64,000 nucleotides of DNA. It comes from Herbidospora yilanensis (GTDB taxonomy: Bacteria > Actinomycetota > Actinomycetes > Streptosporangiales > Streptosporangiaceae). The stretch is taken from NCBI RefSeq assembly GCF_001570565.1, contig NZ_BBXE01000021.1, forward strand, positions 124,001-188,000. The letters are read 5' to 3'. This document shows positions 15,509-20,226 of this stretch, piece after piece. The position numbers and the translations under genes were made by a program. The notes below the pieces were generated by a model. It saw only the letters and a list, made by a program, of their open reading frames with translations, made no database searches and was not told where the DNA came from. Numbering within the stretch: position 1 is the stretch's first letter; every line of letters starts with the position of its first letter.

Positions 15509-17962
<2,454 letters not shown>

Positions 17963-17995
17963 GTTTGATCTCCTGAATTATCGACACCTGCCCAT

Positions 17996-18025
17996 AAGAA
18001 AACCCCCCGGCTGAAGCACGAGGGG
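17996..18025 (-). terminator. Attenuator terminator upstream of leuS
   Basis: On the minus strand CCCCTCG pairs with CGGGGGG (7 bp with one T-G wobble) around the loop TGCTTCAGC, followed directly by TTTTCTT. It ends 34 bp before the leuS start, inside the presumed transcript, so it would cut transcription before the gene. Confidence 0.75.
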
Positions 18026-18026
18026 C

Positions 18027-18065
18027 GGCCGCGTCGAGGCTGCTGTCAGCTCGCTCGACGCGGCC
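18027..18065 (-). promoter_or_regulatory. Leader hairpin and alternative pairing segment of leuS
   Basis: GGCCGCGTCGAG and CTCGACGCGGCC form a perfect 12-bp stem (18054-18065 with 18027-18038). Its loop contains GCTGACAGCA (18050-18041 on the minus strand), which can pair with the terminator loop TGCTTCAGC (9 pairs and one bulge). The stop codon of the leader peptide lies inside this segment. This is a plausible switch between antiterminator and terminator. Confidence 0.6.
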
Positions 18066-18093
18066 CGGTAAGAAGCAGGTTCGCGGCACGCAT
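18046..18093 (-). CDS. leuS leader peptide, 15 residues with three Leu codons
   Basis: ATG at 18093 opens a 15-codon frame, MRAANLLLTGPRRAS, ending in TGA at 18046-18048. It has three consecutive leucine codons (CTG CTT CTT), two of them CTT, a codon rarely used in this genome. A -10-like TACCCT ends 6 nt before the ATG, so the peptide is probably made from a leaderless transcript. Its coding sequence includes the left arm of the leader hairpin, and the terminator follows immediately. A leader peptide that measures charged tRNA-Leu is the best reading; no protein function is expected. Confidence 0.7.
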   Translation of the reverse strand: MRAANLLLTGPRRAS

Positions 18094-18099
18094 AGAGCA

Positions 18100-18105
18100 A
18101 GGGTA
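18100..18105 (-). promoter_or_regulatory. Candidate -10 of the leuS leader transcript
   Basis: TACCCT on the minus strand, 6 nt before the leader peptide ATG (18093). No good -35 hexamer is visible at the usual distance. Confidence 0.55.
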
Positions 18106-18231
18106 GCGCAGAACGCAAGCGGGAATGGGGGCGGCCGAAGGACGACGAACAGCGGCGGATCTTACACCGAGAGTAAAGTGGCGATATCGGATGGTGATAG
18201 ATCCATTGTGACCTCGGTTGTCCCTTTCGTT

Positions 18232-18237
18232 TACCCT
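18232..18237 (+). promoter_or_regulatory. Candidate -10 of the proline-rich membrane protein gene
   Basis: TACCCT ends 6 nt before GTG at 18244, the same arrangement as for the leuS leader on the other strand, suggesting a leaderless transcript. A TTGTGA at 18206-18211 is a possible but distant -35. Confidence 0.4.
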
Positions 18238-18243
18238 CATCTC

Positions 18244-20226
18244 GTGAACCCTGTCGACCCGAGGCGCGGCCCGGACCTCCCGCAGGCGGACCTTCCGATG
18301 CAGGATCCGCCCACCGACCCCACGGGCGAGACGTTCAGAGGGGGCTTTTCCAGTTTCGCCGCCCCGGCCCCCAGCCCGCATGAGATCATGCCAAGCACGT
18401 CTAATTCGGGCATGATCTCGGGAGGTTCCATGCCCTCGGAGCACAGTGATCCACGGCGCGGCCCGGCCTGGCCGGAAGTCCCGCCAGCCTGGCCCGAGGT
18501 GCCGCCGCCCGCCGCCTCGTACCCGCCCAATCCGGTCGCCGCACCCCACGGCCGGCCGGAGCCCGCGCCCTTCGGCGGCCCGCAGGCCCCTTCACCCGGC
18601 GGCTCGTTCCCTCCGAGCCCGGTCGCCGCGTGGCACGACGCCCGGCCTGAGAACCGGCCTGAGAACCGGCCCGAGAACCAGACCGGCCCGCAGAGCCCGC
18701 CGATCCCCCAGGCCCCGTTCCAGGAGCATCCGCCGTTCCCGGTGCCGCCACCGCCGCCGCCTCCGATGAGCCCGTTCGGGCCGGCCGACGACTATCCGGC
18801 CTTCGGCGCGGCGTCCGCCCCGGCCCGCCCCGCGTCCCCCGGCCCGGAGTTCCCGCCCGTCAGGGCCGGCAGCGGACCGGTGTTCCCGCCTCCGATGAAC
18901 CCGCCGGGTTTCCCGGAGCCGCAGGCCGCGCGGCAGCCCGCCCGGACCAACACGGGCCCCGGCTTCCCCGAACTGCCGCCCGAGGAGGGACCCTGGGCCT
19001 CGGCGCCCAACGTGTTCCCCCGCGCCGAGGAGCGGAACCCGTCGTTCCCGCCCCGGCCGGTCGAGCCGGCCCCGCAGCAGTCGTTCTCCTACCAGGAGCC
19101 GGCCACCACGTTCGGCACCCCGCGCGGCCCGTTCGACCCGCGTGTGCCCCAGCCGCCGATGGACCAGCAGCCGTTCCCGCCCGTCCAGGCCGCCGCGCCC
19201 GCCACCGACCGCACGGTCACGATGGGCCCGCCCGGCCAGCCCGCGCCGCCGCCGGCGGCACCGCAGGCCGCACCGCAGGCCCCGCAGCAACCGGCTCCGC
19301 CGATGAACGCGCCGCAGCAGCCGCACGGCTACGGCGGCCCGACCACGGGCGAGCACCTGGTGCAGCAGCTCCCCGGCGACGACCCCTACAAGCCGTTCGT
19401 CACCGCGGGCCAGATCAGCGGCCCGAAGACGCCCCCGGCCGCCCGGCAGCAGGAGTTGTGGGAGACCGTGTGGGGCGACGGCCAGCACACGACCGACGAT
19501 GACGACGACGAGAAGGGCAAGCCGGTCTGGCTGTTCGCGCTCGTCGGCTCGGTGCTGGTCGCGCTGATCGTGGCGCTGCTGTGGGCGTTCCTGGCCGGGC
19601 CGCTCAGTTCGGCCGCCGAGACGACCGCCCAGCCCGCCCCCTCGGCCAAGCCGTCGGCCACCAAGCCGGCGGCGCCCGCGGCGTCGGGCGGCATCCCCGA
19701 GTACGACGGCGAGAAGTCGGCCGTCAAGGGGACCCTCACCGACGAGACCGCCGGGATCTCGATCTCGCAGCTCGGCGGCCAGTGGAAGACCGACGCCGAC
19801 ACCCAGACGGTCATGTCGACCTACGGCTACTCGACCCGCCAGTACGTCAGCGCCGGGCTCACTTCCAAGGGCAAGCCGTGGTTCGCGACGGTCATGACGG
19901 GCCGGCTCCCCGCCGACCTCGCCTCGCAGTACAAGTCGCCGACCGACATGCGGCCGGTGCTGAACGGCGTGGTGTTCAAGGCCCGGCAGACGATCTTCCC
20001 GAGGCCCAACAAGGTCGCCAGGGTCGGCTCGCAGAAGCTGCCCGGCGGCCTGGGCCAGGCCGCCGCCTACAAGGTGACCGACGACGGCGGCGGGACCCTG
20101 GTCGTGGTGGCCGCGGTCAACACCGGCGCCGAGGTCCCGTCGATCGTCTACATGATGGTGCCGGACCTGCGCGACGACCTGCTGCCCGACGTCAACACGA
20201 TTCTCAAGTCGATCAAGAAGTCCTAG
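18244..20226 (+). CDS. Proline-rich single-pass membrane protein with a C-terminal external domain
   Basis: A predicted 660-residue protein: a very long cytoplasmic Pro/Gly/Gln-rich N-terminal region (to about residue 420), one membrane segment (LFALVGSVLVALIVALLWAF), an Ala/Pro-rich stalk, and an external domain of about 175 residues ending PDVNTILKSIKKS. That domain is homologous to the end of the protein at 52753-53679. The start is uncertain: GTG 18244 has a leaderless-type -10, while ATG 18430 has GGGAGG just upstream and follows an 11-bp inverted repeat; the 62 residues between are less codon-biased. The 3' end overlaps the P450 gene by 4 bp. Function unknown. Confidence 0.75.
   Translation: MNPVDPRRGPDLPQADLPMQDPPTDPTGETFRGGFSSFAAPAPSPHEIMPSTSNSGMISGGSMPSEHSDPRRGPAWPEVPPAWPEVPPPAASYPPNPVAAPHGRPEPAPFGGPQAPSPGGSFPPSPVAAWHDARPENRPENRPENQTGPQSPPIPQAPFQEHPPFPVPPPPPPPMSPFGPADDYPAFGAASAPARPASPGPEFPPVRAGSGPVFPPPMNPPGFPEPQAARQPARTNTGPGFPELPPEEGPWASAPNVFPRAEERNPSFPPRPVEPAPQQSFSYQEPATTFGTPRGPFDPRVPQPPMDQQPFPPVQAAAPATDRTVTMGPPGQPAPPPAAPQAAPQAPQQPAPPMNAPQQPHGYGGPTTGEHLVQQLPGDDPYKPFVTAGQISGPKTPPAARQQELWETVWGDGQHTTDDDDDEKGKPVWLFALVGSVLVALIVALLWAFLAGPLSSAAETTAQPAPSAKPSATKPAAPAASGGIPEYDGEKSAVKGTLTDETAGISISQLGGQWKTDADTQTVMSTYGYSTRQYVSAGLTSKGKPWFATVMTGRLPADLASQYKSPTDMRPVLNGVVFKARQTIFPRPNKVARVGSQKLPGGLGQAAAYKVTDDGGGTLVVVAAVNTGAEVPSIVYMMVPDLRDDLLPDVNTILKSIKKS
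18382..18419. repeat. Perfect 11-bp inverted repeat before the internal start site
   Basis: GAGATCATGCC (18382-18392) and GGCATGATCTC (18409-18419) are perfect inverted copies with 16 bp between them, immediately followed by GGGAGG and ATG 18430. The stretch is AT-richer than its surroundings. It could be an operator of an internal promoter or an mRNA hairpin near the ribosome site. Confidence 0.5.

Follow-up and report, generated by a model that had tools for sequence, protein, structure and literature searches.

The leucyl-tRNA synthetase gene leuS of Herbidospora yilanensis is preceded by a short leucine-rich reading frame, a hairpin and a terminator, which raises the question of how a ribosome on such a frame might control transcription of the gene. 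The window, the whole 64,000-nt stretch that was analyzed, carries these elements on its minus strand from 18105 to 17963, in the order (5′ to 3′) -10 element, ATG, leader frame, hairpin and T-tailed terminator, followed by the GTG of leuS. The -10 element TACCCT (18105-18100) lies 6 nt before the leader ATG (18093-18091). The leader peptide gene leuL (18046-18093) encodes MRAANLLLTGPRRAS and ends in TGA (18048-18046), with CTG CTT CTT (Leu 6-8; 18078-18070) as regulatory codons. Hairpin 1 begins 4 nt past the last Leu codon with the 5′ arm GGCCGCGTCGAG (18065-18054), all 12 bp of which are paired with the 3′ arm CTCGACGCGGCC (18038-18027), and the gap to the terminator is 0. The intrinsic terminator (17996-18026), assigned from sequence and covariation, consists of GCCCCTCG, the loop TGCTTCAGC and CGGGGGGT with a T-rich tail; its stem (18026-18019/18009-18002) contains 8 pairs, G.U and U.G wobbles included, and TTTTCTT occupies 18002-17996. 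Following a Shine-Dalgarno sequence AGGAG identified by eye (17970-17974), leuS (15509-17962, minus strand, start codon 17962-17960) encodes a leucyl-tRNA synthetase of 817 aa (NCBIfam TIGR00396, 944 bits, E 7e-284). A sequence-only reading of this DNA had named the -10 element, the frame, the Leu codons, the 12-bp hairpin and the terminator, and all were found where it placed them; the distance from terminator to leuS, which it gave as 34 nt, is 33 nt.

Both strands of the window were scanned for the full signature, in which TANNNT is followed by a short frame carrying adjacent Leu codons and then by a terminator; it matched once. Folding of the 143-nt leader gave -64.6 kcal/mol, a stability matched by none of 200 dinucleotide shuffles (z -3.46). 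Rfam, searched for T-box elements and riboswitches, contained nothing that reached its gathering score anywhere in the window, and the leader itself had only a chance-level match (E 4). The leader frame stays open far upstream as a 167-aa GTG ORF (18046-18549, minus strand), which an automatic annotator could pick over leuL. A tiny frame, ATGGGCAGGTGTCGATAA (MGRCR), lies between terminator and leuS (17995-17978, minus strand) and was also seen by eye in L005 and, differing in one residue, in L032.

Conservation was surveyed by a LeuS search, which matched all seven genomes of the genus and 144 of 150 family genomes. From the latter, 143 family upstream regions were obtained by omitting G098 (match cut at the gene start) and G017 (a 48% relative) and adding G006 from the genus. 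The strict scan asked for TANNNT 4-9 nt before a start codon, a frame of 7-40 codons with two adjacent Leu codons within the first eleven, and a terminator whose stem has 5 or more pairs, including 4 G-C, and is followed by at least 5 T in 8. This signature was present in 84 of the 143 regions and in 7/7 genus genomes, and in none of 2860 dinucleotide shuffles. The leuL peptide is the same in six of the seven genus genomes, the source genome included, and carries A14T in the seventh. In the 84 family leaders, TANNNT precedes the start by 6 nt (81) or 7 nt (3). Such spacing fits leaderless transcripts; because of it, the leader ATG here would lie where transcription should begin.

Outside the family, 196 genomes of the class were searched, of which 106 matched at E 1e-60. 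The class set comprised 80 regions, namely 79 of the 87 non-family matches and one family genome, two stretches being shortened by contig ends; a leader was found in 25 of them, belonging to nine further GTDB families. For 18 genomes without a match to that query, a TIGR00396 search found leuS in every case (long LeuS type); six of these carry a leader by a looser pattern, three with the Streptomyces-type peptides MRAVRLLLSEPR or MRAVRLLLSGPR. The first of these, the S. lividans peptide, is encoded exactly by two class genomes. In L257, L258, L263 and other long-LeuS loci the TIGR00396 match falls into two parts around position 142, as an insertion would cause, and the genomes with Streptomyces-type leaders carry such a split-match LeuS yet have the same leader. 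Named loci with enough upstream sequence gave 8 matches in 78, one probably by chance, among them Thermoactinospora rubra, Streptosporangium saharense and Arthrobacter sp. Soil762. The resulting set of 119 leaders (84 family, 25 class, 6 long-LeuS and 4 named) leaves out L103, a Desulfuromonadales MAG that passed the scan and looks like chance, as well as the named family members L056, L057 and L059, which also passed. The strict scan undercounts, missing leaders recognized by eye (e.g. L168, L171, L176, L181, L216, L218 and L223), which were not added. Since the scan demanded adjacent Leu codons and a terminator, their presence in all 119 is not independent evidence. Related leuS 5′ regions, which the sequence-only reading had proposed as a check, thus held the Leu frame, hairpin and terminator in 7/7 genus genomes and far beyond, and a conserved leucine leader in front of leuS is confirmed.

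The stems themselves, also proposed for checking, covary, hairpin 1 strongly and the terminator in its arms. In the family, the arms of hairpin 1 occur in 41 distinct combinations with 95.4% of cells paired; whole arms swapped between leaders gave at most 89.4%, and changes on both sides were counted in 47 cells against at most 26 in 500 shuffles. RNAalifold applied to 31 diverse leaders (alignment A1) returned only hairpin 1 and the terminator, with compensatory change at 10 of 13 consensus pairs. In a swap test, segments from the same leader were compared with segments exchanged between species, long-spacer leaders being excluded (first run: 78 of 84 used, 75 distinct; larger run: 114 of 119 used, 111 distinct). 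For the 111 distinct leaders, own arms were far superior to swapped arms in hairpin 1 (z -17.5) and in the terminator (z -19.1). This covariation marks hairpin 1 as a genuine RNA structure.

Of the 119 leaders, 103 end their Leu run with CUU and the other 16 with CUC. CTT is rare in the window, as the sequence-only reading had remarked, making up 2 of 188 Leu codons in four long ORFs, leuS among them. The tRNA-Leu(GAG) is expected to decode both CUU and CUC. In 112 of the 119 leaders, hairpin 1 begins 4-5 nt past the last Leu codon, a rule not limited by the length of the Leu run, which is three (94), two (22) or four codons (3). The gap between hairpin 1 and terminator is 0-2 nt in 119/119; taken by themselves, gaps this short are also common in shuffled spacers (664 of 1190). 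Both spacings jointly were found in 111 of 119 leaders versus 60 of 1190 shuffled spacers, with up to three Leu codons counted; recounting the full run for the three leaders with four Leu codons (L256, L262 and L363) gives 112 rather than 111 at 4-5 nt and 103 rather than 102 for CUU. Loop length and stop position vary freely among the 119 leaders. Measured against the first 10 nt of the hairpin 1 5′ arm, 25 stop codons fall just ahead of this stretch, 45 within it and 49 past it.

These features suggest that leuL is likely a ribosome-mediated transcription attenuator of leuS sensing charged tRNA-Leu, with the rare last Leu codon as its most probable sensor, and that it would probably provide more leucyl-tRNA synthetase when charged leucine tRNA is short. 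A conserved leader might instead not respond to leucine and set the basal leuS level by constitutive partial termination. In line with this, the strict leader was found in none of the examined genomes of g65 (4), g23 (5) and g34 (2), all of which keep leuS. Codon changes in the S. coelicolor ilvB leader are reported to have left regulation unaffected (PMC1262725), so that actinobacterial leaders can mislead. Constitutive termination leaves both the choice of CUU (103) or CUC (16) and the fixed distance between codon and hairpin unexplained, and we regard it as very unlikely. By eye, the start codon of the leader has been lost in L033, L035, L036 and L038 (g65), in L043-L045, L136 and L142 (g23), in L040, and in L047 and L049 (g34); in g23 and L040 the terminator remains, its 5′ arm seemingly overlapped by a hairpin GGCAGC/GCTGCC.

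If leuL is an attenuator, its switch could be of the classical trp type, in which stalling of the ribosome exposes a segment able to pair with the terminator. The sequence-only reading proposed one such pairing, between the leader-loop segment GCTGACAGCA and the terminator loop. This pairing exists here (-13.0 kcal/mol) and is also strong in L003 and L005; as an antiterminator it is not conserved, ranging from -13.3 to -7.2 kcal/mol in the seven genus genomes, and own loops paired no better than species-swapped loops (z -0.5, 92 of 300 swaps as low; larger set z -1.1, 36 of 300). Other pairings fared similarly in the 111 leaders: z was +1.5 for the loop with the terminator 3′ arm and -0.7 for the Leu codons with that arm, and the hairpin 1 3′ arm with the terminator 5′ side was worse than swapped (z +2.5; +3.4 in the 75 leaders). 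The start region with the terminator 3′ arm had a slight advantage over swapped segments (z -1.9; 7 of 300 as low) and could serve a classical switch; it was the lowest of the remaining leader segments matched with the terminator 5′ arm, loop or 3′ arm, none of which was trusted in the pairing direction. Partners in the 30 nt past the terminator gave z -2.0 for the Leu codons (11/300) and -1.9 for the start region (12/300) in the 75 leaders. In the window, ACCTGCTT (18080-18073, minus strand), over the Leu codons, is complementary to GGGCAGGT (17993-17986, minus strand), just past the terminator, a pairing with a slight edge over swapped sequences.

An antiterminator was also sought by folding. 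End-point folding with ribosome masks told nothing about leuS and, of five E. coli controls, separated only pheL; it was therefore replaced by a cotranscriptional test. In short, the folded RNA ran from the ribosome front, set 13 nt downstream of the first A-site nucleotide, as far as the terminator loop, a stage at which the terminator 3′ arm is still to emerge, and the share of the terminator 5′ arm paired upstream was read out; the test is thermodynamic and its ribosome front crude. For E. coli thrL, trpL, leuL, hisL and pheL, upstream pairing was 0.60-0.84 at most regulatory codons, with stop-codon values of 0.00, 0.17, 0.00, 0.71 and 0.00, respectively; hisL was not separated (His codons 0.74 vs. 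stop 0.71). Two Streptomyces trpE leaders gave 0.67-0.77 at Trp and 0.08-0.26 at the stop; these came from a looser pattern, which matched in two of six genomes among other matches, after a first pattern had given none.

For the 119 leuS leaders, mean upstream pairing was 0.02 at the first Leu codon, 0.22 at the best Leu codon and 0.29 at the stop. Only 4 of the 119 reached 0.6 at a Leu codon, the other 115 showing no sign of an antiterminator there, and the Leu-codon value exceeded the stop value by at least 0.3 in 3/119. An antiterminator formed on stalling at the regulatory codons, by which trp-type attenuation is recognized, was therefore not found in these leaders, and no clear conserved alternative antiterminator emerged from their sequences. 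Classical attenuation has in its favour, besides the pairings named above, that it was predicted with antiterminator hairpins in two Streptomyces (PMC1262725) and that a loop/terminator antiterminator was proposed for Corynebacterium ilvB-II (PMC10272879). Set against this, the loop, both hairpin 1 arms and the Leu codons show no preference for their own terminator over that of another species (z -1.1 to +3.4), upstream pairing of the terminator 5′ arm is lowest with the ribosome on the first Leu codons, and the consensus fold holds hairpin 1 and the terminator only, which makes it rather unlikely.

The same values allow the reverse reading, with the terminator 5′ arm paired upstream while the ribosome is at the stop codon rather than at the Leu codons. 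The stop value was at least 0.3 higher in 15/119 leaders, and three Streptomyces-type genomes gave 0.32-0.59 at the stop versus 0.00-0.03 at the Leu codons. Such pairing is not conserved, the combination of hairpin 1 3′ arm and terminator 5′ side being worse than swapped in both sets, and it would be biologically odd for a synthetase gene; we consider it highly improbable.

The reading we prefer needs no second fold and assigns hairpin 1 the role of a ruler. Transcription would begin at the leader ATG. As long as charged tRNA-Leu is plentiful, the ribosome would reach the stop codon in or beside hairpin 1, melt the hairpin and depart, whereupon the terminator would fold and transcription end. 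When charged tRNA-Leu is short, the ribosome would stall at the Leu codons and hairpin 1 would form at its mRNA entrance; because hairpin 1 touches the terminator, the stalled ribosome would come to rest only a few nucleotides short of the terminator base, which would keep the terminator from closing and let leuS be transcribed. That a Leu-stalled ribosome set in place by hairpin 1 blocks the terminator is quite possible, if somewhat short of probable, and the leader probably does not work in the textbook way.

The distances bear on this step. With hairpin 1 folded, the first Leu codon lies at most 14 nt from the terminator in the 119 leaders; with hairpin 1 unfolded, 31 nt or more separate the third or last Leu codon from it. 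For the stop codon the distance is never below 16 nt (0/119 at 15 nt or less) and is within 27 nt in 77/119. For E. coli, Li et al. argued that 10-15 nt of free RNA from the A site to the terminator are necessary, and fitted a limit of 27 nt below which the ribosome represses a terminator (PMC4824070). Under the 10-15 nt limit, a stalled ribosome would therefore block whereas one at the stop would not. Under the 27-nt limit, 77 of the 119 stop codons are also too close, so that a ribosome at the stop could block as well, a weakness of this mechanism unless release is fast. The stalled and stop states separate only under the 10-15 nt limit.

The abutting helices could also act without a ribosome. 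If hairpin 1 and the terminator cannot both fit the RNA exit of the polymerase, hairpin 1 alone would be the antiterminator, ribosome or not, and the gap of 0-2 nt in every leader agrees with this. An untranslated or released leader would then read through, leaving little regulation, and a search of the literature, available in part, for such a case yielded none that we recognized; this explanation is quite unlikely.

Positioning by a hairpin ruler would predict the same layout before other genes. A covariance model built from 31 leuS leaders found leuS in 7/7 genus genomes (E 2e-12 or better) and, at 27.5-27.6 bits, one second site in each of the seven, of which the site of the source genome was read. 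This site (G000:C23:152812-152908; L382 1501-1597) carries a leader MFNGLLIIGRRAG with Ile codons, a hairpin beginning 5 nt past the last of them and an abutting terminator, and the gene that follows is citramalate synthase (cimA; TIGR00977, 607 bits). Another 21 class genomes, selected for a weak best match to the model, gave 24 sites: two before leuS, one before a likely acetolactate synthase and 21 others. Of these others, 19 are followed by the start of a citramalate synthase (by eye), while L391 and L400 show another frame. The layout set comprised 23 leaders, 22 of cimA type, the source genome's included, and one of ilvB type. The hairpin lies 4-5 nt past the last Ile codon in 19/23, and the hairpin-terminator gap is 0-1 nt in 21/23; the two larger gaps we attribute to the scan having picked an inner stem. 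Upstream pairing at the Ile codons averaged 0.17, and none of the 23 reached 0.6. For the last Ile codon, 12 leaders use ATT and 11 use ATC, so no rare-codon rule applies. In L407 (1501-1592), the leader VHSILVVIEHVA precedes an acetolactate-synthase-like gene (named by eye), its hairpin adjoining the terminator and lying 2 nt past the last Ile codon. The four g65 genomes in which the leuS leader has lost its start codon retain a cimA-type leader (L390, L391, L393 and L394). No paper on a cimA leader was found in a search of the literature, available in part.

We put at roughly one in three the probability that the leuS and cimA leaders of Actinomycetes form one class of attenuators free of antiterminators, in which a covarying hairpin, 4-5 nt from the last Leu codon (usually the rare CUU) or Ile codon and flush with the terminator, places the stalled ribosome so as to block it. 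Attenuation is taught as a choice between two folds; in 115 of 119 leaders from many actinomycete families no second fold was seen, and the distance from codon through hairpin to terminator is fixed. If the proposal is true, a stalled ribosome switches a terminator by position alone, a rule that could be tested by shifting a few nucleotides and that predicts further leaders, the cimA Ile leader having been found in this way.

The leuS leader as such is not a discovery. The sequence-only reading did not recall leucine attenuation for an actinobacterial leuS, and in this it was mistaken: Seliverstov et al. (2005) predicted what they called "classical candidate attenuators" in front of the leuS genes of S. 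avermitilis and S. coelicolor (PMC1262725), and the 2021 reannotation of S. lividans TK24 reported leuL2, encoding MRAVRLLLSEPR, upstream of leuS, leaderless by RNA-seq and followed by a hairpin and then a uridine stretch (PMC8079986). Because of this prediction and this report, the leader is of a kind already known, and that of H. yilanensis is an orthologue of the Streptomyces element; what would matter is the layout. Like the Streptomyces leaders, it combines the same gene and peptide type (MRAVRLLLSEPR vs. MRAANLLLTGPRRAS) with a leaderless start, judged here from the spacing, and a hairpin followed by a T-tailed terminator, so that the marks of a leuL, a leaderless LLL peptide with hairpin and T-tailed terminator directly before leuS, are all present. 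It differs in its longer peptide and in the stop codon lying in the hairpin loop. The Streptomyces leaders were called classical, with an antiterminator (PMC1262725), whereas the folding test showed none at the Leu codons of three Streptomyces-type genomes. No mention of leuS is made in the available part of PMC3896937.

With the E. coli thr, trp, leu, his and phe leaders it shares a leader of regulatory codons and an intrinsic terminator before the regulated gene; as expected of an attenuator, a predicted short frame with Leu codons precedes leucyl-tRNA synthetase here, with the terminator in between. Those leaders show an antiterminator in the folding test, unlike 115 of the 119 leuS leaders, and their last helix ends 4-11 nt from the terminator, whereas hairpin 1 abuts it. 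The LEU element was described for leuA as a pseudoknot in which Leu codons pair with the Shine-Dalgarno box (PMC1262725); the leader studied here carries a T-tailed terminator. The Corynebacterium ilvB-II leader has stems P1 and P2, a leader frame over P1 and uridines after P2, as here, and a C. ulcerans ilvB-II reporter in B. subtilis was high in minimal and low in rich medium (PMC10272879). It serves another gene and other amino acids, and its authors propose an antiterminator between the P1 loop and P2. In E. coli pyrBI (pyrL), the known precedent for a ribosome acting against a terminator, the terminator hairpin fails to form when a ribosome follows closely on the polymerase (PMC10135430), and the same final step is proposed here. 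Where pyrBI senses UTP through polymerase pausing, with no spacer hairpin mentioned in the available part of that source, a codon-specific stall together with hairpin 1 would set the distance in the leuS leader.
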